Positions 279 to 30,600 of a DNA stretch of 64,000 bases are shown here, in pieces; the first letter of the stretch is position 1, and each line of letters opens with the position of its first letter. The stretch covers positions 70,231,731-70,295,730 of the forward strand of contig CM068583.1 in the NCBI GenBank assembly GCA_035048485.1. Reading direction: 5' to 3'. This stretch comes from Pteria penguin. Its lineage: Eukaryota > Mollusca > Bivalvia > Pterioida > Pteriidae. The notes under the pieces are model-generated. The model made no database searches. It saw only the letters and a list, made by a program, of their open reading frames with translations, and was not told the origin of the DNA. Position numbers and translations under genes: made by a program.

Positions 279-3200
279 GTAAGTACACATCTAGAGACTC
301 TCCTGTCAGAGGTAGATTAGATACACGGGTAAAGTGTCTCCTGTCAGCGGTAGATTAGATACACGGGTATAGTGTCTCCTGTCAGAGGTAGATTAGATAT
401 ACGGCTAGAGTGTCTCCTGTCAGAGGTAGATTAGATACACTGGTATAGTGTCTCCTGTCAGAGGTAGATTAGATACACGGGTATAGTGTCTCCTGTCAGC
501 GGTAGATTAGATACACGGGTATAGTGTCTCCTGTCAGAGGTAGACTAGGTACACGGGTAGAGTGTCTCCTGTCAGAGGTAGATTAGATACACGGGTAAAG
601 TGTCTCCTGTCAGAGGTAGATTAGATACACGGGTAGAGTGTCTCCTGTCAGAGGTAGATTAGATACACGGGTATAGTGTCTCCTGTCAGAGGTAGATTAG
701 ATACACGGGTAGAGTGTCTCCTGTCAGAGGTAGATTAGATACACGGGTATAGTGTCTCCTGTCAGAGGTAGATTAGATACACGGCTAGAGTGTCTCCTGT
801 CAGAGGTAGATTAGATACACGGGTATAGTGTCTCCTGTCAGAGGTAGATTAGATATACGGCTAGAGTGTCTCCTGTCAGAGGTAGATTAGATACACGGGT
901 ATAGTGTCTCCTGTCAGAGGTAGATTAGATACACTGGTATATTGTCTCCTGTCAGAGGTAGATTAGATACACGGGTAGAGTGTCTACTGTCAGAGGTAGA
1001 TTAGATACACGGGTAAAGTGTCTCCTGTCAGAGGTAGATTAGATATACGGGTATAGTGTCTCTTGTCAGAGGTAGACTAGATACACGGGTAGAGTGTCTC
1101 CTGTCAGAGGTAGACTAGATACACAAGTAAAGTGTTTCCTGTCAGAGATGACACTAGGTACACGGCTAGAGTGAATCCTGTCACAGGTGAGACTAGGTAC
1201 ATGGGTAGAGTGTCTCCTGTTACAGGTAGACTAGGTACACATGTATAGTTTCTCCCATTAGAGATGAGACTAGATACATTGGTAAAGTGTCTCCTGTCAG
1301 AGGTGCGACTAGAAACCGATTAAAGTGTCTCCTGTTAGAAGTGAGACTAGGTACACATGTAAAATGTCTCCTGTTAGAGCTGAGACTAGATACACGGGTA
1401 AAGTGTCTCCTGGTAGAGGTGAGACTATATAGACGGGTAAAGTGTTTCCTGGTAGAGGTGAGACTATATAGACGGGTAAAGTGTCTCCTGCCAGAGGTAA
1501 GACTATATAGACGGGTAAAGTGTCTCCTGGTAGAGGTGAGACTATATAGACGGGTAGAGTGTCTCCTGCCAGGGGTAAGACTATATAGACGGGTAGAGTG
1601 TCTCCTGCCAGGGGTAAGATTATATAGACGGGTAAAGTGTCTCCTGGTAGAGGTGAGACTATATAGACGGGTAGAGTGTCTCCTGCCAGGGGTAAGACTA
1701 TATAGACGGGTAGAGTGTCTCCTGCCAGGGGAAAGACTATATAGACGGGTAAAGTGTCTCCTGGTAGAGGTGAGACTATATAGACGGGTAAAGTGTCTCC
1801 TGGTAGAGGTGAGACTATATAGACGGGTAGAGTGTCTCCTGCCAGGGGTAAGACTATATAGACGGGTAGAGTGTCTCCTGCCAGGGGAAAGACTATATAG
1901 ACGGGTAAAGTGTCTCCTGGTAGAGGTGAGACTATATAGACGGGTAAAGTGTCTCCTGGTAGAGGTGAGACTATATAGACGGGTAGAGTGTCTCCTGCCA
2001 GGGGTAAGACTATATAGACGGGTAGAGTGTCTCCTGCCAGGGGTAAGACTATATAGACGGGTAAAGTGTCTCCTGGTAGAGGTGAGACTATATAGACGGG
2101 TAGAGTGTCTCCTGCCAGGGGTAAGACTATATAGACGGGTAAAGTGTCTCCTGGTATAGGTGAGACTATATAGACGGGTAAAGTGTCTCCTGCCAGAGGT
2201 AAGACTATATAGACGGGTAAAGTGTCTCCTGGTAGAGGTGAGACTATATAGACGGGTAAAGTGTCTCCTGGTAGAGGTGAGACTATATAGACGGGTAGAG
2301 TGTCACCTGGTAGAGGTGAGACTATATAGACGGGTAAAGTGTCTCCTGCTAGAGGTGAGACTATATAGACGGGTAGAGTGTCTCCTGGTAGAGGTGAGAC
2401 TATATAGACGGGTAAAGTGTCTCCTGGTAGAGGTGAGACTATATAGACGGGTAGAGTGTCTCCTGGTAGAGGTGAGACTATATAGACGGGTAAAGTGTCT
2501 CCTGCTAGAGGTGAGACTATATAGACGGGTAAAGTGCCTCCTGCTAGAGGTGAGACTATATAGACGGGTAGAGTGTCTCCTGGTAGAGGTGAGACTATAT
2601 AGACGGGTAAAGTGTCTCCTGCCAGGGGTAAGACTATATAGACGGGTAAAGTGTCTCCTGCCAGGGGTAAGACTAGATACACAGCTACAGTATCTCCTGT
2701 CAAAGCTGAGACGAGATACACAAACAAATACGTTAATGTCTCCTTTCAGTGTTGAGATAAAGTGCACGAATAAAGTGTATCCTGTCAGGTGTCAGACAAG
2801 ATGTCTACGGCTAGAGTCTCTCCGGTCAGAGGTGAGACTCTATACATGAATTAAATAAGTGTCATGTGTCAGAGGTGAGAATAGGTGCACCAGTAAAATG
2901 TCTCTTGTTAGAAGTGAGACGAGATGCACGGATAAAACAAGTGTTTCCTGTCAGAGAAGACACTAGGTACACCGTAAGATTGTCTCTTGTCAGAGGTAGC
3001 CTAGGTACACGTTTAGAGTGTCTCCTGTCACAGATGACACTAGGTACATGGCTAGTGTGTCTCCTGTGAGAGGTAGACTAGGTACACGGATAAAGTGTAT
3101 CCTGTCAGAGGTAGACTAGGTACACGGATAAAGTGTATCCTGTCAGAGGTAGACTAGGTACACGGCTAAAGTGTATCCTGTCAGAGGTAGACTAGGTATA

Positions 3201-4690
3201 CGGCTAGAGTCTCTCCTGTCAGAGATGACACTAGGTACACGGGTAGAGTGCCTCCAGTCAGGGATGACACTAGGTACACAGCTAGAGTGCCTCCAGTCAG
3301 AGATGACACTAGGTATACGTCTAGAGTGTCTCCTGTCAGAGGTGAGACTAGATACATGACTAGAGTGTCTCATGTCAAAGATGACACTAGGTACACGACT
3401 CGAGTGTATCTTGTCAGAGATGATACTAGGTACACGGCTAGAGTGTCTCATGTCAGAGAAGACACTAAGTACACCGCTGGAGTGTCTCCTGTCAGAGGTA
3501 GCCTAAGTACACGGCTAGATTGTCTCCTGTCAGAGGTAGATTAGATATACGGGTAGAGTGTCTCCTGTCAGAGGTAGATTAGATACACGGGTAAAGTGTC
3601 TCATGTCAGAGGTAGACTAGGTACACGGCTAAAGTGTCTCCTGTCAGAGGAAGACTAGGTACACGGCTAAAGTGTATCCTGTCAGAGGTAGACTAGGTAT
3701 ACGGCTAGAGTCTCTCATGTCAGAGATGACACTAGGTACACGGCTAGAGTGCCTCCTGTCAGGGATGACACTAGGTACACGGGTAGAGTGCCTCCAGTCA
3801 GAGATGACACTAGGTACACGGGTAGAGTGCCTCCAGTCAGAGATGACACTAGGTACACAGCTAGAGTGCCTCCAGTCAGAGATGACACTAGGTATACAGC
3901 TAGAGTGCCTCCTGTCAGAGATGACACTAGGTACATGGCTAGAGTGTCACCTGTCAGAGCTAGACTAGGTGCACGGTTAGAGTGCCTCCAGTCAGAGATG
4001 ACACTAGGTACACGGGTAGAGTGCCTCCAGTCAGAGATGACACTAGGTACACAGCTAGAGTGCCTCCAGTCAGAGATGACACTAGGTATACAGCTAGAGT
4101 GCCTCCTGTCAGAGATGACACTAGGTACATGGCTAGAGTGTCACCTGTCAGAGCTAGACTAGGTGCACGGTTAAAGTGTCTCTTGTAAGAGGTAGACTAG
4201 GGGTACACGGCTAAAGTGTATCCTGTCAGAGGTAGACTAGGTATACGGCTAGAGTCTCTCATGTCAGAGATGACACTAGGTACACGGCTAGAGTGCCTCC
4301 TGTCAAAGATGACACTAGGTACACGGCTAGAGTGCCTCCTGTCAGAGATGACACTAGGTACATGGCTAGAGTGCCTCCTGTCAGAGATCACACTAGGTAC
4401 ATGGCTAGAGTGTCACCTGTCAGAGCTAGACTAGGTGCACGGTTAGAGTGTCTCTTGTCAGAGGTGAACTAGGTACACGGGTAAAGTGTCTCCTTTCTGG
4501 GATGACACTAGGGGTACACGGTTAGAGTGTCTCCTGTCAGAAGTGGCACTAGGTACACCTCTAGATTGTCTCCTAAAAGAAGTGAGACTAGATACATGCC
4601 TGGAATGTCTCGTGTCGGAGGTGAGACTAGGTGCACGACTAGAGTGTCTTCTGATTTATAAAGATGGACTATAGGTGCATGGCTAGGGTA
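279..4690 (+). repeat. 38/39-bp minisatellite, about 115 units
   Basis: The array begins exactly at the GTAAGT candidate donor of exon 1, and the first unit (279 onward) aligns with all later ones: GTA/GTGAGACT, then TACACGG, then GTGTCTCCTGTCAGAG. Early units are 38 bp. From about 1400 to 2690 the unit is a homogeneous 39 bp, which is why long open frames appear on both strands there (a 13-residue periodic peptide). The tail from 2700 to 4690 is more diverged and contains local duplications, for example around 3750-3960 and 3970-4160. Every unit keeps an AGAG/GTGAGA-like or AGAG/GTAGA-like junction resembling a 5' splice site. Inferred to be intron 1 of gene 1. Confidence 0.9.
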
Positions 4691-4766
4691 AATCTCCTGT
4701 CAGGATTTGAAAATTGTTATAGTCGTTTATGTTTTGAACCCCCCCCCCGTTCCCCACTAATACCAG

Positions 4767-4905
4767 GGATTCGTTGTGGATCCATTTAAGGCGTAAACGA
4801 GACCACCATTCCAACTCTTAAACTCGATGGTCCAGTGCACACAGTGTAGTGTTCTGGCTACGCACCGGAAATGATTATACTGTTCGTGGTTTTGTGTTTA
4901 TTAAG
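4767..4905 (+). CDS. Candidate exon 2: 5' leader plus signal peptide start
   Basis: A C-rich tract and AATACCAG at 4766 make a convincing 3' splice site. Downstream, ATG at 4871 opens MIILFVVLCLL, a strongly hydrophobic run like the core of a signal peptide, and the frame stops soon after unless spliced at AAG/GTTAAT (4905/4906). Odd: this donor leaves in phase 2, whereas the lectin exon entered at the best acceptor (5021/5022) needs phase 1. Using the next in-frame acceptor (5037/5038) restores the frame but leaves a very short signal peptide. A base error, an alternative acceptor or a different start exon are all possible. The acceptor and hydrophobic start are seen; the assignment to gene 1 is inferred. 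Confidence 0.4.
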
Positions 4906-5021
4906 GTTAATCGTGTAACAGAACTTTTTTTTTTTATTTTGTTGGTTTTTGTTTACTGTGTGATATTTTTTCATCCTCTTAATTAGCATTAACTGTTTTG
5001 ATGTTTTGTCAATTTATTCAG

Positions 5022-5306
5022 GTGTGTCAGGGTACAGTTTCACGATATGCGAACATTCGTCCGGGAAAAGCTTCAGCTGCCCAGGTGGTTATTACATATA
5101 CATAACGTATGCCATGTACGGTCGCCTAAGCTATAGCACGTGCGGAAACAATGGAAACACAAACTGCAGGTCCGGTTCCTCAATGTCTCAAACACAGAGT
5201 CGGTGTCACGGCAAGGGCAGCTGCTACATAGAGGCTTCTAACGGAATCTACGGAGACCCGTGTCATGGAGTACAAAAATATCTCACCGTCCACTACAACT
5301 GTGCAA
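5022..5306 (+). CDS. Exon: SUEL-type (rhamnose/galactose-binding) lectin domain
   Basis: A 95-codon exon between TTTATTCAG and GTAAGTG, entering and leaving in phase 1. It encodes one complete SUEL/RBL carbohydrate-recognition domain: start VSGYSFTICEHSSG, the AMYGR motif (YGR is the family's sugar-contacting signature), and the closing GDPCHGVQKYLTVHYNC that matches the conserved DPC motif. Eight cysteines are present, the usual number for four disulfides. Family knowledge: such domains bind L-rhamnose or D-galactose and occur in egg lectins, in latrophilins and in many mollusc and fish defence lectins. As the N-terminal module of gene 1 it probably provides ligand recognition. The last roughly 30 nt of this exon and its donor are tandemly multiplied just downstream. 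Strong call. Confidence 0.92.
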
Positions 5307-5975
5307 GTAAGTGTTTGAACACTGAGGTTTTACGAAAATATCTCACCGTCCACTGCAATGTGCAAGTAAGTGTAAAGACACGAGAGTTTGACGAAAATAT
5401 CTCACCGTCCGCTATAACTGTGCAAGTAAGTGTATAGACACGGAAGTCTGACGAAAATATCTCACCGTCCACTATAACTGTGGAAGTGAGTGTTCAGAGA
5501 AGGAAAATATCTCACTGTCCAATATAACTGTCAAAGCAAGTGTATAGAGGCGGAAAATATCTCACCGTCCACCATAACTGTGCAAGTAAGTGTATAGAGG
5601 CAGAAAATATATCACTGTGCAAGTAAGTATGAAGACACAGAAATATCTCACCGTCCACCATAACTGCATAACGTATGTGTACAGAGGCGGAAAATATCTC
5701 ATTGTCCACTATAACTGTCCAAGTAAGTGTATAGAGGCGGAAAATATCTCACTGTCCAAAATAACTGTCCAAGCAAGTGTATAGAGGCGGAAAATATCTC
5801 ATTGTCCACTATAACTGTCCAAGCAAGTGTATAGAGGCGGAAAATATCTCATTGTCTACTATAACTGTCCAAGTAAGTGTATAGAGGCGGAAAATATCTC
5901 ACTGTCCAATATAACTGTCCAAGCAAGTGTATAGAGGCGGAACATATCTCATTATCCACTATAACTGTTCAAGTA
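5307..5975 (+). repeat. Minisatellite made from the lectin exon end plus its splice donor
   Basis: About twelve units, first about 60 bp and then about 50 bp long. Each contains AAAATATCTCACCGTCC, then TATAACTGTGCAA and then GTAAGTG, that is, the last codons of the lectin exon (KYLTVHYNCA) followed by its own donor and the first intron bases. Several units keep an intact GTAAGT; others have GCAAGT. Short open frames in this stretch are read-throughs of these copied exon ends, not genes. Confidence 0.9.
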
Positions 5976-6694
5976 AGAAAGCTCATATATCAATATAGTC
6001 CTAAAGCCTAAAATTTAATCGTGGATAGTTAATTTAAAACATACACAACAGCTATGATACATAAATATAATAAAGTAAATAAAACGAGAAGTCATAAATA
6101 TAAATTTAATATCAATTAGGTAAATGATCCTTTTTCCTAAGGTGACAAAACAAAACAAACAGTTTTCGTGTATCCACATTCTTTTACACTAGTGCAGTTT
6201 TACTGTTTGAATTTACGGACGATTCCGCGTCGCTGTAAAGACTGACAACGTGAATGTTTCTACGATGTGCAAAGTAGTTCTAAAATAGAGAGAAAGTTTC
6301 AACTCATAAATGGATGTGTAGTAGTGTTATATTACATATTCAATTATCTGGTTTTAGAATTTATTTTATAAAGCATTATAGTCAAGGTCGACAAAGTGAA
6401 AAATGAAAAGCGTCGGAATTCTACAAGTTGGTCGGATGAATATAAAGAACTGTATATTGTGACTATATACGGCCGAACGTTTCCGTTTCAGCCAATAAAA
6501 ATAAACGTAACAACAGAAGTGTATTAGAGTAAGCTAATATACTAGATGCATTTACTTAAAGGTAATTGTAGAGGACGCAAAATGTCCGTTAATTCCAAGT
6601 ACATGTGTAATTTAAATTCCTACTATTGTAATTATAAGGTAATGGTATGTGTCTTTAATAAAACTATCAGAATAATAGTTTGTTCGAATTTCAG
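5976..6694. other. AT-rich unique intron sequence
   Basis: No domain-encoding frame, repeat or RNA structure recognised. It ends in the acceptor GAATTTCAG of the first TSP1 exon. Confidence 0.6.
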
Positions 6695-6865
6695 GAAATG
6701 GTAACTGGGGCGGATGGGGCGGATGGGGATCTTGTTCTAGAAACTGTGGAGGTGGATCCAGGTCTCGCTCTCGTTCCTGTAACAACCCATCGCCCTCTGG
6801 TGGCGGATCCTCTTGTTCAGGAAGTTCTTCTCAGTCGTCCAGCTGTAACACCCACTCCTGTGCAG
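6695..6865 (+). CDS. Exon: thrombospondin type-1 repeat 1
   Basis: A 171-nt phase 1-1 exon. It encodes NWGGWGGWGSC (the three-tryptophan ladder W-x-x-W-x-x-W and Cys1), CSRNCGGG, RSRSCNNPSP and CNTHSCA, with six cysteines in the TSP1 pattern. The W-x-x-W motifs are the usual C-mannosylation sites. Odd: the second motif is C-S-R-N-C, so it lacks the Ser/Thr of the O-fucose consensus C-x-x-S/T-C that later repeats keep. The donor is GCAG/GTAAAACT. Its last bases seed the 21-bp array immediately downstream. Confidence 0.92.
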
Positions 6866-7390
6866 GTAAAACTCAGTCATGTACAGATAACACTCAATCA
6901 TGTACAGGTAACTCTCACTTCATTGCAGGTAATACTCGATCATGTACAAGTAACACTCAATCATGTACAGGTAACACTCAATTATGTACAATTAACACTT
7001 ACTTCATTGCAGGTAACACTCAATCATGTACAGGTAACACTCATTCACGTACAGGTAACACCCACTCTTGTGCAGGTAACACTCATATATGTACAGGTAA
7101 CACTCCTGTGCAGGTTATACCCGTTGATCTTGTAAAGGTAACAATTACACTTATCCTTATGAAGTTATCTATAAACTCCATCGCTGTAAAGATAACTCAT
7201 TCCTGTAAAGATAACTCATTCCTGTAAAGATAACTCATCCCTATAAAGATAACTCATTCCTGTAAAGATAACTCATTCTTGTAAAGATAACTCATCCCTG
7301 TAAATATAACTCATTCCCTGTAAAGATAACTCATTCCTGTAAAGATAACTCATCCCTGTAAAGGTAACTCATTCCAGTAAAGGTGTTTAA
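6850..7390 (+). repeat. Two short minisatellites (about 21 bp, then 19 bp) copied from the TSP1-1 exon end
   Basis: From 6850 to about 7130 the unit is TGTACAGGTAACACTCA plus about four bases, a copy of the exon end and donor ACTCCTGTGCAG/GTAAAACTC. From about 7150 to 7390 the unit becomes TGTAAAGATAACTCATTCC (19 bp), a further derivative. The 21-bp period is a multiple of three, so an open frame (a 7-residue repeat) appears across the exon and array; it is not a separate gene. Confidence 0.85.
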
Positions 7391-7534
7391 TCATTGTAGA
7401 GATATATTTCATTCTCGTACAGGTATTTTTTTCCTGTAAGAGATTCATTCCTATACAGGTATTTTCTTCCTGTTGAGGTAACTCATTCCTATAAAGATAC
7501 CTCACATTCCTGTGCAAATGAAGGATAATGTTCA

Positions 7535-9634: not shown

Positions 9635-9665
<31 letters not shown>

Positions 9666-11400
9666 AAGCTATTGTGATCAATCGCCGTTCGTCGTCTGTC
9701 GTCCGTCGTCCGTCCGTCGTTAGCTTTTCTACATTTCGACTTCTTCTCCAGAACCGCTGCACAGAATTTCACCAAACTTCATAGGAAGTAAGTACTCAAG
9801 ACCTTTTACCAAGTTTGTGTTTTTCGTGGCCATCCGTAATCCAAGATGGCTGCCATTGGCTCTGATTGGTTGACACATTTTCGACTTCTTCTCCACAACG
9901 GCTGCACAGAATTCCACCACACCTCATAGGAAGTAAGTACTCAAGGTCCTCTACCAAATTTTTTGTTTTTCGTGCCCATCTGTAATCCAAGATGGCCGCC
10001 ATTGAGTCTGATTGGTTGACACATTTTGGACTTCTCCAGAAGCGCTGCACAGAATTTCACCAAACCTCATAGGAAGTAACTACTCGAGGTCTTCTACAAA
10101 GTTTGTGTTTTTCGTGCCGATCCGTTATCCAAGATGGCCGCCATTGGCTCTGATTGATTGACACATTTTGGACGACTTCTCCAGAAGCGCTGCACAGAAT
10201 TTCATCAAACCTCATAGGAAGTAAGTACTGAAGGTCCTCTACAAATTTTGTGTTTTTCGTGCAGATCCGTTATCCAAGATGGCCGCCATTGGCTCTGATT
10301 GGTTGACGCATTTTCGACTTCTTCTCCAGAAGCGCTGCACAGAATTTCACCAAACGTCATAGGAAGTAAGTACTCAAGGTCTTCTACCAAGTTTGTGTTT
10401 TTCGTGCCGATCTGTAATCCAAGATGGCCGCCATTGGCTCTGGTTGGTTGACACATTTTGCACTTCTCCAGAGCCGCTACACAGAATTTCACCAAACCTC
10501 ATAGGAAGTAAGTACGCAAGGTCCTCTACTAAGTTTGTGTTTTTCGTGCCGATCCGTTATCCGAGATGGCCACCATTGGCTCAGATTGGTTGACACATGG
10601 ACGACTTCTTCTCCAGAAGCGCTGCACAGAATTTCACCAAACCTCATAGGAAGTAAGTACTCGAGGTCCTCTACCAAGTTTGTGTTTTTCGTACTGATCC
10701 GTAATCCAAAATGGTCGCCATTGGCTCTGATTGGTTGACACATTTTGGACACTTCAAAACCACTGCACAAAATATCACCAAACCTTATAGAAAGTCTTGT
10801 GGAAAAAAGCAAAATTTTCTACTGAAATGAGCTGTCATTTTATTGTAAATAAGCAATTTGTGCTCAGGTGAGCGATATAGGCCCATTTGGGCCTATTGTT
10901 TACAGATAATGTCTACCCTAACTCTCACTGCGGTACACTTTCGGTATAATTCTCACTGCGGTACACATTTTCATTGATAATGTCTAACACTAATTCTCAC
11001 TTCGGTAAACTTTTTCACTGATAATGTTTAGCCCTAATTCTCACTGCGGTACACTTTTTCACTGATAATGTCTAGCTCTAATTCTCACTGTGGTACACTT
11101 TTGTACTGATAATGTCTAACTCTAATTCTCACTGCGGTACACATTTTCATTGATAATGTCCAGCCCTAATTCTTACTGCGGTACACATTTTCATTGATAA
11201 GGTCTAACACTAATTCTCACTGCGGTACACTTTTTCATTGATAATGTTTAGCTCTGATTCTCACTGCGGTACACTTTTTCATTGATAAGGTCTAATACTA
11301 ATTCTCACTGCGGTACACTTTTTCACTGATAATGTTTAGCTCTGATTCTCACTTCGGTACACGTTTTACTGATAATGTATAACCCTAATCCTCACTTCGT
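9530..11400. repeat. 44-bp minisatellite, interrupted by an inserted element
   Basis: Units carry CTAATTCTCACTGCGGTAC, then TTTTTCACTGATAATGTCT. About three units lie at 9530-9640 and about eleven at 10905-11400. The two parts are one array split by the insertion at 9641-10900. Confidence 0.85.
9641..10900. mobile_element. Non-autonomous repeat element with short terminal inverted repeats and an internal ~145-bp tandem array
   Basis: The ends are GCTCACCTGAGC (9641) and its reverse complement GCTCAGGTGAGC (10862-10873), the latter followed by GATATAGGCCCATTTGGGCC. I recall similar end sequences as dispersed repeats in bivalve genomes; I have not verified this. Inside are about seven copies of a roughly 145-bp unit with CCAAGATGGCCGCCATTGGC, GAATTTCACCAAACCTCATA and TTTGTGTTTTTCGTGC. 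Open frames on both strands here are repeat frames. It sits inside the 44-bp array. Confidence 0.75.
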
Positions 11401-11451: not shown

Positions 11452-11622
11452 TTCATGGAAACTGGGGTAGCTGGGGCTCTTACGGAAGCTGTACCAAGTC
11501 CTGTGGAAGTGGAACCAAAACGAGGTCCAGGTCCTGCAATAATCCTGCTCCTAGCAATGGCGGAAATAACTGCGCAGGCTCGGGTTCTTCATCTACTTCC
11601 TGCAACACTCATAACTGTCCAA
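11452..11622 (+). CDS. Exon: thrombospondin type-1 repeat 2
   Basis: A 171-nt phase 1-1 exon between TCTCAACAG and GTGAGTAA. It encodes HGNWGSWGSYGSC, CTKSCGSG, RSRSCNNPAP, NNCAGSG and CNTHNCPS, with all six cysteines. The third tryptophan of the ladder is replaced by Tyr. The C-x-x-S-C-G motif fits O-fucosylation by POFUT2-type enzymes. No array follows this donor, unlike TSP1-1 and TSP1-3. Confidence 0.93.
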
Positions 11623-12246: not shown

Positions 12247-12417
12247 TTCACGGTGCGTGGGGAGGCTGGGCAGCGTGGGGAAGTTGTACCGTTACATGCG
12301 GAGGAGGGACCAAAGGCCGAACACGTTCCTGTAATAATCCAGCCCCTCAATATGGCGGAGCAACGTGTCCCAACTCTGGAAGTTCATCGACATCGTGTAA
12401 CACACATAACTGTCCAA
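12247..12417 (+). CDS. Exon: thrombospondin type-1 repeat 3
   Basis: A 171-nt phase 1-1 exon. It encodes HGAWGGWAAWGSC, CTVTCGGG (O-fucose consensus kept), RTRSCNNPAPQYGG and CNTHNCPS. It is very close in sequence to TSP1-4 (both contain GGGTKGRTR and CPNS), so these two are a recent module duplication. The last 22 nt plus the first 13 intronic nt (12396-12430) are the unit of the following 35-bp array. Confidence 0.94.
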
Positions 12418-13336
12418 GTGAGTAATATCGTGTAACACACATCACTGTCCAAGTGAGTTATATAGTGTAAAACACATTACAATCCAAGTGAGTTATATGG
12501 TGTAACACCCTTTAATGTCCATGTCAGTTATTTCGTGTAACACACATCACTGTCCAGGTGAGGTATATCTTGTAACACACATCACTAAGTGAGGCATATC
12601 GTGTAACACACATCACTGTTCAGTTAAGGCATATCGTGAAAAACACACGTCAATGTCCATGTGAGTTTTATCATGAAACACATATCACCGTCGAAGTGAG
12701 GTTTATCGTGTTACGCACATCACTGTCCAAGTGAGTTATATGGTGTAACACATATCACTGTCCAAGTGAGGTATATTTTGTAATAGACATATCACTGTCC
12801 AAGTGAGGTATATTTTGTAATGCACATCACTGTCCAAGTGAGTTACATGTATATCAGGTAACATACATCACTTAGTGAGATATGTCGTGTAACACAAATC
12901 AATGTCCAAGTGAGTTACATCGTGTAACACATCTCACTGTTCAAGTGAGGTTTCTTTTGTAACACACATCACTGTCCAAGTGATATACATGTATATCGTG
13001 TAACACACACCACTTAGTGAGGTATATCGTGTAACACACTTCAATGTCCAAGTAAGCTATATCGTTTAACACACATCAATGTCCAAGTGAGTTACACTGT
13101 GGAACACACCTCACTGTTCAAGTGAGGTTTCTCTTGTAAAACACATCACTGTCCAAGTGAGGTATATCTTGTTACACGTCTCACTGGCTAAGTGAGGTAT
13201 ATCGTGTAACACACGTCACTATCCAAGTGAGTTATATCGTGTAACACATCTCATTGTCCAAGTGGGGTATATTGTGTAACACTTCACTGTCCAAGTGAGT
13301 TATATCGTCGTGTAACATACATCACTATCTAAGTTA
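12418..13336 (+). repeat. 35-bp minisatellite = TSP1-3 exon end plus donor (first segment)
   Basis: About 26 units of TGTAACACACATCACTGTCC, then AAGTGAGTTATATCG. The founding unit is the exon end itself (TGTAACACACATAACTGTCC) with GTGAGTAATATCG. Most units keep GTGAG after the exon-derived part. The array is cut at 13336 by a TIR element and resumes at 17818 and 22201. Confidence 0.92.
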
Positions 13337-13779
13337 GCCGCAAGTAGTGGTCCTATATGAATGATAGGGCCACAATTCCTTACGTTGCTTTAACTTGCAA
13401 TTTTGATAAACGGAATGGCCGGTGTTATATAGTAGTTTTCCCCCATAGTAGTTTTTCCCCCCGGAAACATGGCTATATAGTAGTTTTTCCCCATAGAAGT
13501 TTTCCCCCTTTACGTAACGGTTTGGAAATTATACGCGCTCGTTATTTTTGAATACATAAGATATAACATTAGAAATACAAATGTAGTACCGTGATAGCCA
13601 GTGGATCAAACCGATGGTGTTATGGTTAAGGGGTTTCTATATACTGTCAAGTGTTTAGTTGTAAATATGTACAAGTCTTTCTCTTTACATATTAACCATA
13701 TTATGGTATTTTCTCCTATTATTTCATTGTCGTTTATTTGTGTGTACGTCATGTCATTCATTCTACCAGATTGTAATTT

Positions 13780-14260
13780 TCTATCCGATCCCTCAACGAA
13801 TATGACCGCCAAGGACTTGGTTGATGCATTTTCAACTTCTCTCTTGAATCCGCTGCATGTAATCAGTGGCGTCAAGTCTGGACTGTATGGTGGCCAAGCA
13901 AGAAGTGGAGCGTTGTTGCGAGTCAGAAAGTCACGACAAATCCTAGCAACATCGGGCCTCGCGTTGTCCTGTTACATTTATGGATAAGAGGTAGGACGTG
14001 TGGTCTCAAGACCTGATCCCGATATCTTATTGCTGTAAGATTGCCATGGATAACCACGAGATGCTTCCACGCCGTGAGATATCCCCGCCCAAACCATAAA
14101 GACCCGCTCCCCCGAATATGTCGCTGTCCACTAAGCAAGGGTCAGAATATCGCTCACCGCGACGTCGATAGACAAGTTGTCCATCTGACCGTGCGTGAAG
14201 CGAGACTCGTCAGTGAACAACACGTCTCCAATGGGCCAAACAAAACCGATTAGGCGCATC
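13780..14260 (-). pseudogene. Decayed Tc1/mariner-type transposase fragment
   Basis: Reading the minus strand from about 14255 downward, fragments in shifting frames match a Tc1 DDE domain: VLFTDESRF (first catalytic Asp), WAGIS-like text, HGNLTAIRYRDQVLRPHVLP, then NNAPLLAWPPYSPDL (third catalytic region). The segment that should carry the second Asp (the DNARPH region) is deleted. Frameshifts and the missing N-terminal DNA-binding part show it is dead. A related element at 25.4-27.1 kb lacks it, so it is probably a nested insertion. Confidence 0.75.
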
Positions 14261-14439
14261 GTAAGGAGTACGCATGTGGAATATGAATCTGTAACGTTGG
14301 AAAGTTATGACCAATATTAAAGTTTCCAGAAAGGTTGGCCAAAAGTCGTGTTGGACGTCAAAAATGTTGGTATCACCTGAAAGGGCTCATCTTAAGGAAT
14401 ATATAAGTGAAATACGAAAGCCCCTCCTGTAACGGTTGC

Positions 14440-16995
14440 AAATGTTAAGGTATAGTGTCAAAGCCCTACACCTTGTAGTACAAAAGATATAAGGTATAGT
14501 GTCAAAGCCCTACACCTTGTAGTACAAAAGATATAAGGTATAGTGTCAAAGCCCTACACCTTGTAGTACAAAAGATATAAGGTATAGTGTCAAAGCCCTA
14601 CACCTTGTAGTACAAAAGATATAAGGTATAGTGTCAAAGCCCTACACCTTGTAGTACAAAAGATATAAGGTATAGTGTCAAAGCCCTACACCTTGTAGTA
14701 CAAAAGATATAAGGTATAGTGTCAAAGCCGTACACCTTGTAGTACAAAAGATATAAGGTACAGTGTCAAAGCCCTACACCTTGTAGTACAAAAGATATAA
14801 GGTATAGTGTCAAAGCCCTACACCTTGTAGTACAAAAGATATAAGGTATAGTGTCAAAGCGCTACACCTTGTAGTACAAAAGATATCCCTACACCTTGTA
14901 GTACAAAAGATATAAGGTATAGTGTCGAAGCCCTACACCTTGTAGTACAAAAGATATAAGGTATAGTGTCAAAGCCCTACACCTTGTAGTACAAAAGATA
15001 TAAGGTATCGTGTCAAAGCCCTACACCTTGTAGTACAAAAGATATAAGGTATAGTGTCAAAGCCCTACACCTTGTAGTACAAAAGATATAAGGTATAGTG
15101 TCAAAGCCCTACACCGTGTCAAAGCCCTACACCTTGTAGTACAAAAGATATAAGGTATAGTGTCAAAGCCCTACACCTTGTAGTACAAAAGATATAAGGT
15201 ATCGTGTTAAAGCCCTACACCTTGTAGTACAAAAGATATAAGGTATAGTGTCAAAGCCCTACATCTTGTAGTACAAAAGATATAAGGTATAGCGTCAAAG
15301 CCCTACACCTTGTAGTACAAAAGATATAAGGTATAGCGTCAAAGTCCTACACCTTGTAGTACAAAAGATATAAGGTATAGTGTCAAAGTCCTACACCTTG
15401 TAGTACAAAAGATATAAGGTATAGTGTCAAAGCCCTACACCTTGTAGTACAAAAGATATAAGGTATAGTGTCAAAGCCCTACACCTTGTAGTACAAAAGA
15501 TATAAGGTATAGTGTCAAAGTCCTACACCTTGTAGTACAAAAGATGTAAGGTATAGTGTCAAAGCCCTACACCTTGTAGTACAAAAGATATAAGGTATAG
15601 TGTCAAAGCGCTACACCTTGTAGTACAAAAGATATCCCTACACCTTGTAGTACAAAAGATATAAGGTATAGTGTCGAAGCCCTACACCTTGTAGTACAAA
15701 AGATATAAGGTATAGTGTCAAAGCCCTACACCTTGTAGTACAAAAGATATAAGGTATCGTGTCAAAGCCCTACACCTTGTAGTACAAAAGATATAAGGTA
15801 TAGTGTCAAAGCCCTACACCTTGTAGTACAAAAGATATAAGGTATAGTGTCAAAGCCCTACACCGTGTCAAAGCCCTACACCTTGTAGTACAAAAGATAT
15901 AAGGTATAGTGTCAAAGCCCTACACCTTGTAGTACAAAAGATATAAGGTATCGTGTTAAAGCCCTACACCTTGTAGTACAAAAGATATAAGGTATAGTGT
16001 CAAAGCCCTACATCTTGTAGTACAAAAGATATAAGGTATAGCGTCAAAGCCCTACACCTTGTAGTACAAAAGATATAAGGTATAGCGTCAAAGTCCTACA
16101 CCTTGTAGTACAAAAGATATAAGGTATAGTGTCAAAGTCCTACACCTTGTAGTACAAAAGATATAAGGTATAGTGTCAAAGCCCTACACCTTGTAGTACA
16201 AAAGATATAAGGTATAGTGTCAAAGCCCTACACCTTGTAGTACAAAAGATATAAGGTATAGTGTCAAAGTCCTACACCTTGTAGTACAAAAGATGTAAGG
16301 TATCGTGTCAAAGCCCTACACCTTGTAGTACAAAAGATATAAGGTATAGTGTCAAAGCCCTACACCTTGTAGTACAAAAGATATAAGGTATAGTGTCAAA
16401 GCCCAACACCTTGTAGTACAAAAGATATAAGGTAGTGTCAAAGCCCTACACCTTGTAGTACAAAAGATATAAGGTATAGTGTCAAAGCGCTACACCTTGT
16501 AGTACAAAAGATATCCCTACACCTTGTAGTACAAAAGATATAAGGTATAGTGTCGAAGCCCTACACCTTGTAGTACAAAAGATATAAGGTATCGTGTCAA
16601 AGCCCTACACCTTGTAGTACAAAAGATATAAGGTATCGTGTCAAAGCCCTACACCTTGTAGTACAAAAGATATAAGGTATAGTGTCAAAGCCCTACACCG
16701 TGTCAAAGCCCTACACCTTGTAGTACAAAAGATATAAGGTATAGTGTCAAAGCCCTACACCTTGTAGTACAAAAGATATAAGGTATCGTGTCAAAGCCCT
16801 ACACCTTGTAGTACAAAAGATATAAGGTATAGTGTCAAAGCCCTACACCTTGTAGTACAAAAGATATAAGGTATAGTGTCAAAGCCCTACACCTTGTAGT
16901 ACAAAAGATATAAGGTAGTGTCAAAGCCCTACACCTTGTAGTACAAAAGATATAAGGTATAGTGTCAAAGCTCTACACCTTGTAGTACAAAAGAT
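14440..16995. repeat. 44-bp minisatellite, about 58 units, with higher-order repeats
   Basis: The unit contains AAGGTATAGTGTCAAAGCCC, then TACACCTTGTAGTACAAAAG, then ATAT. A deleted-unit junction (GATATCCCTACACC) recurs at about 14887, 15636 and 16515, giving higher-order periods of 749 and 879 bp. A single diverged unit precursor (TTTCAAAGCTCTACACC) is present in the related element near 26180, so the array is an internal amplification of element sequence. Confidence 0.93.
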
Positions 16996-17817
16996 ATTGC
17001 AAAGCTGATTGGCCTCATCACAAGTAAATTTCAAAGCTCTAAACCTTTTAGTACAAAAGTTTTTGAGGAATAATCAAGCTCAAAGGTCAAGATCACTAAG
17101 TCAAAATTCATGGTCCAAAATGAAAGGTCTCATCACAAAGAATCTATATGTGAAGTTTCAAACTCTTACATCTGTTTGCAAACGATATAGTCAATGTTTT
17201 CCCACTGAGTCAGAGTCACAGTCAGGTGAATTTGATTCCGGGGACATAAAACGAACTGCTGGGTTTTTTTTCCGTAAGTATATATGCAGAATTCTCGGAT
17301 TAGATAACGATATCTCGAAATTCTAGTAGATATATCTCTCTTCCAAATATATACATCTTTATTTGGAAAAGGGATTAAAACTGAAATCATTTCTATTTAA
17401 GAGATATTTCTAAATGCAACAGATATATACTTCTTATCAAAAATTTAAATATGTCCTTTTTAAATAGAAATCTCTTTTTATTGTTAACAATGTAACGAGC
17501 AGGATTTACTTACATGTATGTGTGAAAATAAAATCCGGAATTTCAAATTGGGGGGAAAATTCACTATATAGTAGTTTTTTCCCGGGGGGAAAATGGCTAT
17601 AAGAGGAGGGATGGCTATATAGCCAAATTTCCCCTGGGGAAAAACTACTATATAGCCATTTTTCCGGGGGAAAAACTACTATATAGCCATTTTTTTTCGG
17701 GAGGGGGGGGGGAAATGGCTAGGGGAAAACACCGGCCATTCCGTTTAACAAAATTGCAAATTTACGCATCGTAAGGAATTGTGGCCCTATCATTCATATA
17801 GGACCACTATCTGTGGC

Positions 17818-17860
17818 AATGTCTAAGTGAGTTATATCGTGTAACACACATCAATCTCGA
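17818..17860 (+). repeat. Remnant of the 35-bp donor array
   Basis: About one unit (GTCTAAGTGAGTTATATCGT, then GTAACACACATCA) between the TIR element and a SINE. It shows that both inserted into the same array. Confidence 0.8.
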
Positions 17861-18045
17861 ACCGGTGTGGTCTAGTGTATAAGGTGCTCGGCTCGTGATC
17901 GAGAGATCCCGGGTTCGACTTCCGCCCTGGGCACACCGGTGTTCTGTCTTTCGGATGAGACAGTAAAATCCGAGGTCCCGTGTCACGGTAGACGTGGCAC
18001 GTAAAAGATCCCTCACTGCTTCTGGTGGGTCCGTTGCAATTTACA
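17861..18045 (+). mobile_element. tRNA-derived SINE
   Basis: The head has pol III box-like sequences TGGTCTAGTGTATAAGG (A box) and GGTTCGACTTC (B box), a foldable anticodon arm (CTCGG CTCGTGA TCGAG), then a body with CTTTCGGATGAGAC and GATCCCTCACTGCTTC. ACCGGTG at the 5' end is complementary to CACCGGT just after the head. The body recurs on the minus strand near 25300-25396, confirming a dispersed family. Confidence 0.75.
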
Positions 18046-22090: not shown

Positions 22091-22201
22091 CAATCTGATC
22101 AGAACCATATCTTTATTCCGCTTCTCTGTTTGTCCCATTGCGCTTTATCCGCAATAGGACAAATAGAGAAGCGGAATAAAGATATGGTTCTGATCAGATT
22201 G
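22091..22201. other. Near-perfect 52-bp-arm hairpin
   Basis: The left arm 22091-22142 and right arm 22150-22201 are reverse complements at 50 of 52 positions, with a 7-nt loop CTTTATC. The arms start and end with CAATCTGATCAGAACC and GGTTCTGATCAGATTG. The hairpin sits immediately before the resumed 35-bp array. It could be a foldback MITE or a precursor-like RNA hairpin. Confidence 0.9.
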
Positions 22202-22495
22202 TCTCTATGTGAGTTATATCGTGTAACACACATCACTGTCCATGTGAGTTATATCGTGTAACACACATCACTGTCCATGTGAGTTATATCGTGTAACACA
22301 CATCACTGTCTATGTGAGTTATATCGTGTAACACACATCACTGTCCATGTGAGTTATATCGTGTAACACACATCACTGTCCATGTGAGTTATATCGTGTA
22401 ACACATCACTGTCTATGTGAGTTATATCGTGTAACACACATCACTGTCCATGTGAGTTATATCGTGTAACACATCACTGTCTATGTTAGTTAAGT
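22201..22495 (+). repeat. 35-bp donor array, last segment
   Basis: About eight highly similar units (GTGAGTTATATCGTGTAACA, CACATCACTGTC). Same family as 12418-13336; here the donor-derived part usually reads CATGTGAG. Confidence 0.93.
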
Positions 22496-22616
22496 ATTGA
22501 AATAGAAATCATAACATAATGAATGGTCTTATAATAAAGGTTAGGAAATATATATCAAGTATATTTTTACAATATTATTACACTATAGAATAAAAAGATA
22601 TTATACAATTCTATAG

Positions 22617-22787
22617 TTGATGGTGCGTGGGGAAGTTGGGCAGCTTGGGGAAGTTGTACAGTAACATGTGGAGGAGGGACCAAAGGCCGCACTCGAACAT
22701 GTACCAATCCAGCCCCTCAATATGGCGGAGCATCGTGTCCCAACTCGGCATCTTCATCCACGTCTTGTAACACACATCACTGTCCAA
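22617..22787 (+). CDS. Exon: thrombospondin type-1 repeat 4
   Basis: A 171-nt phase 1-1 exon (acceptor TTCTATAG, donor GTGAGTCA). It encodes DGAWGSWAAWGSC, CTVTCGGG, RTRTCTNPAPQYGG and CNTHHCPS, with a full W ladder, six cysteines and the O-fucose consensus. It is the closest relative of TSP1-3. Its end reads ACACATCACTGTCC, the version found in the 35-bp array units. Introns 4 and 5 are only 127 and 153 bp, so repeats 4-6 form a compact block. Confidence 0.94.
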
Positions 22788-22914
22788 GTGAGTCATATTC
22801 TTTATTAATCTCGTGGAAAATCATAAAATACAGACATGCTTCAGTATGTACTGATTGTTATTCTAGTAATTATACTATATATAGCTATAGTAATCATCTT
22901 ATTTCTTCCTTCAG

Positions 22915-23085
22915 TTGACGGCGACTGGGCGGGATGGGCGGCATGGGGAAGCTGTACAGTAACATGTGGTGGTGGTATCAAATCCAGGTCTAGAACTTGT
23001 ACTAATCCTGCCCCTCAATATGGTGGCGCTGCTTGTACTGGGTTCTCAGGCTCATCGACAACTTGTAACACACATAACTGCCCGA
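22915..23085 (+). CDS. Exon: thrombospondin type-1 repeat 5
   Basis: A 171-nt phase 1-1 exon (acceptor CTTCAG, donor GTAAGTCT). It encodes DGDWAGWAAWGSC, CTVTCGGG, RSRTCTNPAPQYGG, CTGFSGSS and CNTHNCPS. All TSP1 hallmark residues are present. Confidence 0.94.
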
Positions 23086-23238
23086 GTAAGTCTTCGGTCC
23101 ATTATTGGCATGTCTGAGTTTGAATTTATGTGCTCGGTTTTAGTTAGAATCTATAACATTAAAAGGAAAAGAGACCATGTTTTTATGGAACCATCAATGC
23201 ACACCCTTTATGTGATACTGAACATTATGTTCTTATAG

Positions 23239-23409
23239 TTGATGGTAACTGGGGAAGCTGGGCAGCATGGGGAAGTTGTTCTGTCACGTGCGGCGGAGGG
23301 ACACAGAGTAGAAGTCGCACGTGCACCAACCCAGCTCCGCAGTATGGAGGTGCAGCATGTGCGTCCAGCGCCACGTCATCACAGGCTTGCAACACTCAAC
23401 ATTGTCCAA
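23239..23409 (+). CDS. Exon: thrombospondin type-1 repeat 6
   Basis: A 171-nt phase 1-1 exon (acceptor CTTATAG, donor GTAAGTTA). It encodes DGNWGSWAAWGSC, CSVTCGGG (the textbook TSP1 CSVTCG motif), RSRTCTNPAPQYGG, CASSATSS and CNTQHCPS. Complete module. Confidence 0.94.
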
Positions 23410-25285: not shown

Positions 25286-25291
25286 AAATTT

Positions 25292-25396
25292 TGACCTTTG
25301 CAACGGACCCACCCGAAGCAGTGAGGGATCTTTAACGTGCCATGCATACCACGACACGGGGCCTCGGATTTTACTGTCTCATCCGAAAGACATGAC
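25292..25396 (-). mobile_element. SINE body fragment
   Basis: The reverse complement matches the body of the SINE at 17861: CTTTCGGATGAGAC, AGTAAAATCCGAGG, AAGATCCCTCACTGCTTC and GGTGGGTCCGTTGCAA. It abuts the related TIR-type element at ACACCGGTGT. Confidence 0.75.
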
Positions 25397-27113
25397 ACCG
25401 GTGTTATACAGTAGTTTTTCCCCCATAGTAGTTTTCCCCCGGAAAAATGGCTATATAGTAGTTTTTCCCCCATGGCGGAAAAACTACTATATAGTAGTCT
25501 TTCCCCCATAGTAGTTTTTCCCCCTTGCGTAACGGTTTGGATATTATACACGTTCGTTCTGTAACAGAAAGATAACATTTGAAATACATATGTACTATAG
25601 TAATAGCCTGTGGATCAAACCGATGGTGTTATGGTTAATGTGTTTCTAAATACTGTTAATTGTTTTGTTTGTGTGTGTATGTGTGTGTATTTATTTTTTG
25701 TTTTAAGTATTTATTTACAAGTCTTTCTTTTTATATATTTACCATAGTATGCTATTTTCTTCTATTATTCCACCGTTTACTTGCGTATAGATGTCAATCA
25801 TGACGTCAGGCTGTGACTCAAGAGTAGATCCCAGGTAACTTTTCGTAATACAACATAAGTAAAATAGGAATTTATCAATCAAAATGTTCCAATGACAAAT
25901 ATAAGAATTGAACGTGCAAGAATTCCTTGAACATTCAATTCCTAAATAAATTAAGACCGATGCATTTTATATATCACAATATCGCTCATCATGTACAGAG
26001 TACATGATGAACATGAAAATAACAGAAGGGAATTCCACCCAGTGTCCACGATTTGCAATTTACAACAAGGCTTGTCTAGTCGCAGATGTTGTAAATCATG
26101 ATCACAAGAATGCGATTTCCTTGTCCCTTGCGCAAAGTATGAAAGGTTTCATCTAAAAGTATCTATATGCTAAGTTTCAAAGCTCTACACCCTTTTGTGT
26201 AGAAGATAGAGTCAAGGTTAAAGTTTTTGAAAAGTAGGTCACACTTCAAGGTCAAGGTTATTAGGTCAAAAGTCATGGTCCCAAATTAAAGATCTTATCA
26301 CAAGTAATCTAAATATGAAGTTCAAAACCCTTTCTCCTTTTGTTACAAAAGATACAGCCAAAGTTTAAGTTTTTGAAAACGTAGAGCACCAAGGTCAAAG
26401 TCACTAGTTAAAAAAATCATGGTCCCAAATAAAAGGCCATCACAAGAAAACTATATGTGGAGTTTCAAAGCCTTGTACCTCTTGGTATAAACCATATAGT
26501 CAAGGTTTTTGCCACAGGCTAAGAGTCACAGAAAGGCCAAAAACTAGATGCCCCCGAATTTCATTCCAGGGGCATAAAAACGAACTTGTTTTTCTTTTTT
26601 CCATTTGTATATATAGAGATTTCTCGGATTAAATACAGATATCTCGAATGAAATTCTAGTATATAAACCTCTGTTCTAAATATATGCATTTGTATTTGGA
26701 AAAGATATTAAAATTGAAGACATTTCTACTTAAGAAAATGAGATATCTCTAAATTAATTGGATATATCTCCGTATAAAAAATTGAGATATCTCTATTTTA
26801 AATAGAAATCTATTTATTTTTAACAAGGTAACAAGCTGGATTTACTTACATGTATGTGTAAAAAGAAAATCCGGAATTTCACATTAGGGGGAAAATAAAC
26901 TATATAGTAGTTTTTCCCAGGGGGAAAAATGGCTATAAGAGGGGGGGAGGAATGGCTATATAGCTAAATTTCCCCCGGGGGAAAAACTACTATATAGCCA
27001 TTTTTCCGGGGGGAAAAACTACTATATAGCCATTTTTGCGGGGGAAAAACTACTATATAGTCATTTTTCCGGGGGGAAAAATGGCTAGGGGGAAAACTAC
27101 TATATACACTGGA
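25397..27113. mobile_element. 1.7-kb relative of the 13.3-17.8 kb element
   Basis: Shares subterminal inverted TATAGTAGTTTTTCCCCC blocks (25405-25520 and 26900-27105), the internal stretch GTGGATCAAACCGATGGTGT (25610) and the TTTCAAAGCTCTACACCC segment (26165). It lacks both the Tc1 remnant and the expanded 44-bp array. It lies between a SINE body and a tRNA-like sequence, both on the minus strand. Confidence 0.7.
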
Positions 27114-27114
27114 A

Positions 27115-27187
27115 TGACCAGATCGGGACTCGAACCCCGGCCTCCTGATCAGGAGTCCGACGCGATACCACTAGGCCACGCCGGCTT
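27115..27187 (-). other. tRNA-like sequence (SINE head or tRNA pseudogene)
   Basis: The minus strand reads GCCGGCGTGGCCTAGTGG (A-box-like) and GGGGTTCGAGTCCC (B box and T loop). The acceptor ends do not pair and the T stem has two mismatches, so it is not a functional tRNA by eye. If an anticodon is assigned by alignment it is CCT (Arg), at low certainty. Confidence 0.5.
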
Positions 27188-27729
27188 GAATTTTCTACAA
27201 AGACAACAAATATAAATAAGTCAATATTTTAGGTTGTTGGATTTTAAATTATTAGAATGTTGGGACAATTTGTCTGCTAGGAGATGTAGAACACTTGTTA
27301 AAAGCATGCCTAAACGTATTCAAGCTGTGATAAGGGCAAGAGAAGGGTACACGAAATATTACACTGAAATGTGCATTATAGATTAGTATTGCATTTGTAT
27401 ATGAATTTTAAAAATATTTTGTTAAACTTCACTTTTTTCATTATAAAACATGTTCTTTCATTGCAAAATACCTAAATTATCTCTATTTCTTTTTTTTTCT
27501 GTCAAATTAATTCCAAACATATGAAAAATATGAGTGTATACTTATTTATGGAGGGTAGTGTATTTTTGATCGTTGAAAGTTATGTTTTGTAAACTAGATC
27601 CAAGGTGAGGAGACTCGTCACGTGCTTATCAAAATATTATACATAAATGTTTCACTTATATTTAAGTATAGACATGCAATGAGGGTTAATATAATGCTTA
27701 AAAACTCCAATAAGAGGTAAACAGGAAGA

Positions 27730-27795
27730 CACACACACACACACATTCACACACACACACACCTACACACACACACACACACATTCACACACACT
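27730..27795. repeat. (AC)n microsatellite
   Basis: Interrupted AC/CA dinucleotide run with ATTC and CT interruptions. Confidence 0.95.
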
Positions 27796-28023
27796 TATTA
27801 TTTCTAAAATCGATGTATCACTTTCGTGTTTTCATATCAGCCGTATAATCAACTTCGGTCACGTGACAGCGGCTAGCGACTTATGAATATACATTAAGCC
27901 GAGCGGCCTCATTTCTCCGCATGGGTTAAATTAGCAGAGACAGATGGAAAAAATAGATATAGAATTATAAGTTTGTTTGTCTAATCATCCAGTCATACAT
28001 ACATATCTCATTTTCTTCCGCAG

Positions 28024-28194
28024 TTGATGGAGCATGGAGCGGATGGGGCGCTTGGGGATCATGTACTGTGACATGCGGTGGTGGCAAGCAAACCAAGACT
28101 CGCACGTGCACGAATCCTGCTCCACAGTATGGTGGAGCGTCGTGTGGTAACGTCAATTCTGCTGAACAAGACTGCAACACTCAAGTCTGCATCA
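28024..28194 (+). CDS. Exon: thrombospondin type-1 repeat 7
   Basis: A 171-nt phase 1-1 exon (acceptor CTTCCGCAG, donor GTATGTAT). It encodes DGAWSGWGAWGSC, CTVTCGGG, KTRTCTNPAPQYGG, CGNVNSAE and CNTQVCIS. Complete TSP1 module with the O-fucose consensus. Confidence 0.94.
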
Positions 28195-28229
28195 GTATGT
28201 ATTAAATGTATTGTCCAAATTTTAAAGTG

Positions 28230-29045
28230 TTTGGCTACAATCCGTTCAACTATTTGGCTATGATCCGTTTAAAGTATCTAGCTATAATCTGACTAAGATG
28301 TCTGGCTATAACCCGGTCAAAGTATCTGGCTATATTCTAACTACGATATCTGACTGTAATTCGGTTAAATTGCATAGCTATAATCCGGTCAGAATATCTG
28401 ATTGTAATCCACTTAATGTGTCTGGCTATAACCCGGACAAAGTATCTGGCTATAATCCCTTAAGGTATCTAGCTATAATCCAGTTAAAGTATCTGACTAT
28501 AATCTGACTAAGCTATCTGAATGTAATTAGGTTAAGGTATCTGGCTGTACTCCCCTTAAGATATCTGGCTATAATCTGCTTATGGTATCTGGCCATAATC
28601 TGGGTAAGGTATCTGGCTGTAATCTGGATATGGTATCTGGCTGTAATCCGGTTAAGGTATCTGCCTGTAATCTAATTAAAGTATCTGCCTTTAATCCGGT
28701 TAAGGTATCTGACTGTAATCCGGTTAAGGTATCTGACTGTAATCTGGCTAATGTATCCGCTTGTAATCTGGTTATGACATCTGGTTGTAATCTGGTTAAG
28801 TTTTCTGACTGTAATCCGATTAATATATTTGCCTATAATCCGATTAAGGCATGTGGTTGTAATTCAGTTAAGGTATCTGGCTGTAATCCGATTATGGCAT
28901 CTGCTTGTAATCCGGTAAAGGTATCTGCCTGTAATCCAGTTAAGGTAACTGGTTTTAATCCGGTTAAGATATCTGCCTGTAATTGGGTTAAGGTATCTGG
29001 TTGTAATCCGGTTAAGGTATCTGGTTACAATCCGGTTAAGGTGAT
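28230..29045. repeat. 24-bp minisatellite, about 34 units
   Basis: The unit is TCTGGCTGTAATCCGGTTAA plus GGTA. It starts about 40 nt after the TSP1-7 donor. The 24-bp period is a multiple of three, so open frames on both strands (8-residue repeat) are artefacts. I could not align the unit convincingly to the exon end. Confidence 0.92.
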
Positions 29046-29623
29046 GAGACACGCCATTTTTTAACATATAGTTACAAAAGATGAGCAGATCAGTCACATT
29101 ATTGTGAATCAAGGTATGAACAAAGCGAGCAAGGTCGCAGGAGAAGGGAGGGAGGAAAGGTCGTGGAGTGACCTCAACAATAATCAGTTAATCCATCCAC
29201 CAGTCTCTTTGGTAGTTTAACCTTACAGCATCTCTATTTTTATGATAATTTGTTCGTTTTAATTGGAAATTTTAAACGAAGACTCTCTAGAGTTAGCTCT
29301 GTAATGGTGTGCTTAAAGTGATTTATATACATCGCTATACCACTTTTGTATAAATTTTATATACATTATTTTGAAACCTATTCCACTGTGGAATGTATGA
29401 GACAACCACATATATGACAGTCCACATTGACATTCTGTCTGGAAGACTTTTGTACACTTGCACCATAGTGTGTAGGTTTCTGAATGTGGTTTAACCGAAT
29501 GCGATTTTATAAACATCATGGCGTTTAGCCATTTGAACGAATCGTTAAATCTATTTTATCTTCTTGCCACCTTTTCATTAAATATATTATAATGGATGTC
29601 ACAAAACTGACTTGCTATTGCAG
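29046..29623. other. Unique intron sequence before TSP1-8
   Basis: Nothing recognisable. It ends in GCTATTGCAG, the acceptor of TSP1-8. Confidence 0.55.
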
Positions 29624-29820
29624 TTGACGGCGCTTGGGGACAATGGAGCGCATGGGGATCGTGTACCGTGACGTGTGGAGGGGGTCAACATTCCAGGAAC
29701 AGACTATGTGATTCTCCTAAGCCGGCAAACGGAGGAAAATCTTGTTTTGGTGATAGCGCCACGTATGATGATTGTAACACACAATCGTGTCCCACTGTAC
29801 CCGCAGGAACGTACCAACAG
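29624..29820 (+). CDS. Exon: thrombospondin type-1 repeat 8 with C-terminal linker
   Basis: A 197-nt exon, entering in phase 1 and leaving in phase 0. It encodes DGAWGQWSAWGSC, CTVTCGGG, RNRLCDSPKPANGG, CFGDSAT and CNTQSCPT, followed by the linker VPAGTYQQ. This is the most diverged repeat (no NPAPQYGG). The donor CAACAG/GTAATA at 29820 is chosen because the next exon must be entered in phase 0; the LDLa exon does exactly that. The exon end is multiplied in the following 52-bp array. Confidence 0.92.
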
Positions 29821-30600
29821 GTAATAAATGTCACAATCCTGTCCCACTGTACCCACAGAAACATACCAATAGGTAATGTCACAATCCTGTACCACTGTAC
29901 CCAAAGGGACGTACCAACAGATAATAAATGTCACAATCCTGTCCCACTGTACCCACAGAAACATACCATTAGGTACTGAATGTCGCAATCTTGTCCCACT
30001 GTACCCGCAGGATCGTACCAACAGGTAATAAATGTCACAATCCTGTCCCACTGTACCCACACGGACGTACCAACAGGTAATAAATGTCACAATCCTGTCC
30101 CACTGTACCCACAGGAACGTACCAACAGGTAATAAATGTCACAATCCTGTCCCACTGTACCGGCAGGAACATAAAAACAGTTCATAAATGTCACAATCCT
30201 GTCCCACTGTACCCACAGAAACATACCAACAGGTAATAAATGTCACAATCCTGTCCCACTGTACCCGCAGGAACATATAAACAGGGTAATAAATGTCACA
30301 ATCCTGTCCCACTGTACCCACACGGACGTACCAACAGGGTAATAAATGTCACAATCCTGTCCCACTGTACCCACAGGGACATACCAACAGGTAATAAATG
30401 TCACAATCCTGTCCCACTGTACTGGCAGGAACATACAAACAGGTAATAAATGTCACAATCCTGTCCCACTGTACTGGCAGGAACATACAAACAGGTAATA
30501 AATGTCACAATCTTGTCCCACTGTACCCACAGGAACATACCAACAGGTGATAAATGTCACAATCCTGTCACACTGTACCCGCAGGAACGTACCGATAGAC
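29821..30600 (+). repeat. 52-bp minisatellite made of exon end, acceptor-like and donor sequence
   Basis: About fifteen units of ACAATCCTGTCCCACTGTAC, then CCACAG, then GAACATACCAACAG, then GTAATAAATGTC. The founding copy is the end of the TSP1-8 exon (CAATCGTGTCCCACTGTACC) with its donor. Each unit ends in CAG/GTAATA, and most also carry a C/T-containing stretch ending in CAG 14 nt earlier. A few units have GGGTAATA. Confidence 0.92.

Follow-up and report, generated by a model that had tools for sequence, protein, structure and literature searches.

Why several introns of a single bivalve gene should open with minisatellites resembling the exon that they follow is the question raised by a 64,000-nt stretch of the Pteria penguin genome (contig CM068583.1, positions 70,231,731 to 70,295,730 of the forward strand; the whole stretch is called the window below). 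The gene concerned, gene 1, lies on the + strand and has the architecture SUEL lectin–TSP1×8–LDLa–TM (transmembrane). A preliminary description had proposed that five of its intronic arrays each begin at a splice donor. Four of these (I2, I3, I5 and I10) cross a donor and have tandem repeat units that span the exon–intron boundary, while the fifth, at 292–4653, does not. The four are best read as boundary-spanning intronic minisatellites of the 'mirage' type, i.e. as duplications tolerated by splicing, a reading to which we assign a probability of roughly 0.75.

Array edges were determined by wrap-around alignment, and Tandem Repeats Finder (TRF) was used as a second caller. Array I2 (5274–5984; TRF start 5275) begins within the SUEL lectin exon and includes 33 nt of exon before the donor that follows 5306. 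Its unit of 50–60 nt consists of these last 33 nt, the donor and the start of the intron, and a base at the donor position was present in the exon copy and in 13 others. Array I3 (6844–7136; TRF start 6845) includes 22 nt of the TSP1-1 exon before the donor after 6865. Its 21-nt unit derives from the last 21–22 nt of that exon at the donor and carries its own GTAA, so that it can be phased as exon only. Array I5 starts at 12392 according to both callers, 26 nt before the donor after 12417, and the 35-nt unit of its first piece (12392–13334) joins these last 26 nt of the TSP1-3 exon to 9 nt of intron. Array I10 (29777–30606; TRF start 29780) has a 52-nt unit made up of the last 44 nt of the TSP1-8 exon, which ends at 29820, and 8 nt of intron. 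All four are on the + strand. The array starts given previously were in fact the donor positions; in these four cases the true starts lie 22–44 nt upstream, inside the exon. A 19-nt array at 7184–7382 resembles, by eye, a decayed I3 unit; its score with the TSP1-1 end was 17, which is not significant (39/600).

Each array consensus was scored against the 11 donors of gene 1. With the refined consensus, the own donor gave scores of 65 (I2), 44 (I3), 72 (I5) and 97 (I10), and the highest scores on another donor were 34, 24, 62 and 17, respectively; the own donor ranked first of 11 for all four arrays. Since eight of these 11 are paralogous TSP1 ends, the comparison provides a strong control. The own-donor scores of the TRF consensus (65, 44, 67 and 97) were reached by none of 600 non-array 75-mers, the first 600 of 1,500 windows drawn, which bears out for four arrays the proposal that the consensus is closer to the adjacent exon end than to background. 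The array families had also been called unrelated to one another; this holds for I10, but I2 and I5 also gave moderate scores, of up to 34 and 62, with exon ends other than their own. The second-best score of I5 was obtained with the paralogous TSP1-4 end, which resembles the I5 unit almost as much as the TSP1-3 end does, so that sequence exchange between the TSP1-3/I5 and TSP1-4 ends may have occurred.

Each following intron was searched for another copy of the final 40 nt of its exon together with 12 nt of intron. Scores of 71, 54, 61 and 94 were obtained after the SUEL, TSP1-1, TSP1-3 and TSP1-8 exons, and scores of 10–20 in the other six introns (maxima of 100 shuffles per test: 17–31). 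Copies of exon starts were found in none of the 10 preceding introns, where scores were 12–19 and never above those of shuffles; coding introns of gene 1 with copies of the preceding exon end (4/10) are thus set against none (0/10) with copies of the following exon start. As previously described, the introns after TSP1-2, TSP1-4, TSP1-5 and TSP1-6 have no exon-end array, and the same applies to those after TSP1-7 and LDLa. The array within the TSP1-7 intron (28251–29042) was tried as an exon copy and gave no match. Arrays tabulated were 26 of the 37 obtained after merging, those with fewer than three copies or with units below 10 or above 200 nt (11 arrays) being left out, and the shuffles for the copy search and the donor motif preserved single-base composition only.

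The fifth array, with a 39-nt unit (292–4653, + strand), lies close to a donor-like GTAAGT at 279. As a donor copy it was rejected: its own-donor score of 13 was matched by 124 of 600 background windows, i.e. at chance level. Its best U1-like match was 6/9, equalled in 114/500 shuffles. The putative exon ending at 278 contains stops in all three frames of 200–278, and the frame required by a phase-1 join shows no methionine after the last stop; it is possibly an exon of the 5′ untranslated region.

The four arrays are most simply read as duplications that are tolerated while splicing continues at the first donor. In each of the four introns a short tandem duplication would have captured the 22–44 nt of coding sequence immediately before the donor; in three arrays it would also have included 8–27 nt of intron. 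The duplicated units would later have expanded by slippage or unequal exchange; similarity did not decay with distance from the exon copy in I3, I5 and I10, and a hint of decay was seen in I2 only (Spearman -0.55, p 0.05). If the spliceosome keeps using the first, upstream donor, the extra copies would fall into the intron and the protein would remain unchanged, and for this reason the duplication would be tolerated and presumably neutral. Duplications within an exon or across an acceptor would more often alter the mRNA. The introns, which sit between homologous exons, appear to be older than the arrays, since seven of the eight TSP1 exons are 171 nt long and have the same phase.

Rows of the TRF output were merged into 37 arrays covering 41,674 of the 64,000 bases, so that the birth of repeats is common here, and a mechanism special to gene 1, as suggested earlier, is unsupported. 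Such coverage also speaks for chance position, whereby repeats filling most of the sequence must overlap some exon ends. Four arrays crossing a donor, however, had their left edge inside an exon, no more than 45 nt from its end, with no mirror case on the acceptor side, and three placement nulls all expected fewer than 0.7 such edges. Rotations of the 25 gene-region arrays gave an expectation of 0.34 (four or more in 24/32,176), free shuffles 0.33 (1/20,000) and exon-respecting placements, in which arrays were permitted over both boundaries and nowhere else within exons, 0.64 (1/1,500); chance position is accordingly improbable. That arrays originated independently in equivalent structural positions, as previously claimed, is supported for the four, which match their own exon end best and exceed the three nulls, but not for the fifth. 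Tandem arrays are difficult to assemble, and their copy numbers in the assembly may be wrong; false expansion or joining of repeats as the source of the pattern is nevertheless extremely unlikely, given that copies differ among themselves and that insertions divide one array family into pieces. A tentative possibility, compatible with tolerated duplication, is that short direct repeats common to the exon end and the donor seeded the duplications. The Cys-Asn-Thr codons of TSP1 are often TGTAACAC, containing a donor-like GTAA, and about 4 nt at most separate this codon block from the starts of the three TSP1 arrays (6844, 12392 and 29777; distances hand-counted). TGTAAC occurs in five of the eight TSP1 exons. 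Three of these five have arrays, as against none of the three TGCAAC exons, a difference short of significance (one-sided P about 0.18 by hand calculation); arrays are missing after TSP1-4 and TSP1-5 despite their TGTAAC, and the SUEL array is independent of the codon block. Rather doubtful is the further proposition that, in this lineage, minisatellites arise time and again at the donor side of exons, where some local property of the 5′ splice site would multiply the exon ends; this property might lie in short matching repeats or in breaks associated with transcription or splicing.

Function of the arrays, whether the copies are retained to tune splicing, as alternative donors or as decoys for U1, or to supply additional peptide repeats, is very improbable. 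The donor-like GT copies reported previously are real, GT at the donor position being retained in 61 of the 71 copies aligned, a count that includes the real donors and one GT internal to an exon. Conservation of the donor-core columns, however, did not differ significantly from that of the rest of the unit in any of the four arrays (p 0.86, 0.14, 0.61 and 0.10), and because the core is neither significantly more nor less conserved, there is no sign of selection on the copied donors, and the suggested U1 or alternative-donor role finds no support. The 21-nt unit of I3 is in frame, and read-through beyond the exon encounters no stop over about 120 codons, but a stop-free 21-nt unit remains open by itself, and in I2, I5 and I10 read-through hits a stop after about 43, 2 and 52 codons. 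A tandem NTxxCx pattern had no match among the 120 homologs of the gene 1 protein listed (of 2,595 found). In eight bivalve relatives inspected by eye, TSP1 adjoins TSP1, domain to domain, without repeat peptides; a strict TSP1-8/LDLa junction pattern missed one of the eight proteins (P0043), whose junction is readable in the sequence.

Several points weigh against tolerated duplication as the full account of the four arrays. The placement odds are optimistic, because the 45-nt cut and the window were picked after the pattern had been seen. The excess goes beyond what tolerance alone predicts, the third null expecting only 0.64, and a birth bias may be needed. Four donors versus no acceptor is a small contrast. 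The homologs are from other species and mostly predicted models, and offer nothing direct on splicing in this animal. Nor is a donor-like consensus remarkable in itself: for the I5 piece at 12392, the TRF consensus has a donor match of 6/9, as do 85/500 shuffles, and two arrays without any exon link reach 7/9 to the donor consensus.

The 11 exons of gene 1 (+ strand) are located at 5022–5306 (SUEL lectin, with a phase-1 donor), 6695–6865 (TSP1-1), 11452–11622, 12247–12417 (TSP1-3), 22617–22787, 22915–23085, 23239–23409, 28024–28194, 29624–29820 (TSP1-8, with the phase-0 donor CAG/GTAATA), 30830–30992 and 32112–32177. Joined, they form a single open frame of 634 aa, the start codon of which is absent from the window. 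AG/GT was present at the exon boundaries checked, including those of the SUEL lectin, TSP1-1 and TSP1-3 exons and the acceptor of the last exon. Pfam matches comprised one SUEL lectin domain (SUEL_Lectin 3.7e-18), eight TSP1 stretches, those of the TSP1-1 and TSP1-3 exons among them, and one LDLa domain, and a hydrophobic C-terminal stretch, recognized by eye, suggests a membrane anchor. The best-covering of the listed homologs are bivalve; among these matches, a Magallana gigas protein showed 64% identity over 97% and a Crassostrea virginica protein 58% over 99%. An ATG followed by the hydrophobic run MIILFVVLCLL was noted at 4871–4905 and could be a signal-peptide exon, with a donor and phase that fit poorly by eye. 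No clear coding exon of a second gene was seen rightward in the open reading frame list for 32.2–54.7 kb or in two non-array stretches, which were inspected by eye only, with no Pfam run.

The extent of the I5 family had been understated. In addition to the first piece, an isolated remnant (approximately 17817–17861; alignment score 65) and a last piece of near-identical 35-nt units (22207–22492) were found, both on the + strand. Two insertions interrupt the family, namely an element whose inverted arms measure at least 84 bp (13337–13420 and 17734–17817) and a further stretch starting close to a tRNA-Thr-like sequence (17861–17932); the array was probably once continuous. The tRNA-Thr-like sequence we take to be perhaps the head of a short interspersed element. 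The element between the I5 pieces (13337–17817) encloses a 44-nt array with about 58 copies (14446–16997). Within an apparent mobile element lies a 145-nt array (9734–10795), the unit of which contains GAAGTAAGT, matching 7/9 of the donor consensus (37/500 shuffles equal). A 15-nt array of about 621 copies (54711–63999) reaches the end of the window.

Structures of this kind are already known from amphioxus, where 'mirages' have been described in Adh3, the globins BflGb6 and BflGb9 and PGBD5, with units of 10–72 bp in Adh3 and about 150–160 bp in the globins; many copies retain splice signals, and regular splicing is reportedly undisturbed (PMC3087553, PMC3902484). As in gene 1, the unit spans the adjacent boundary of its own gene and many copies keep GT. 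Amphioxus mirages reportedly duplicate both 5′ and 3′ boundaries, whereas gene 1 has donors only, and gene 1 also differs in carrying four such arrays in one gene, in a bivalve. Minisatellite expansion at exon–intron boundaries is likewise known from human segmental duplications, whose internal tandem repeats have units of about 30 bp on average. These are reported to give rise to new introns, and transcripts often retain the repeats (PMC2812944), whereas the introns of gene 1 separate homologous exons. The Rogers 1989 model of intron gain through tandem duplication of AG/GT sites (as cited in PMC3087553) shares with the present case a tandem duplication bearing splice signals; unlike in that model, no new intron was seen in gene 1, and an existing intron was extended from the donor side. 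Among molluscs, intron 3 of an abalone TSSK1-like gene has a long minisatellite with a 27-bp unit whose copy number varies among individuals (PMC6905558), comparable with those of gene 1 but, in the accessible text, without a stated exon-end origin. Exon-derived arrays were not found described in the available portions of PMC6905558, PMC3862624 and PMC4732748, nor were a bivalve or mollusc host, four arrays per gene or a donor-only bias among the papers listed by searches of open-licence PubMed Central aimed at molluscs or bivalves. The host group, the number per gene and the donor-only bias thus appear to be new.

If the pattern holds genome-wide, mirages would not be confined to cephalochordates. 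With four in a single gene, it becomes possible to approach by counting why boundaries seed minisatellites, why donors do so over acceptors and how the spliceosome selects one of tens of near-identical donors. Should donor-side exon ends prove to be a recurrent birthplace of minisatellites, introns would lengthen from the donor end, their growth being hidden by splicing.
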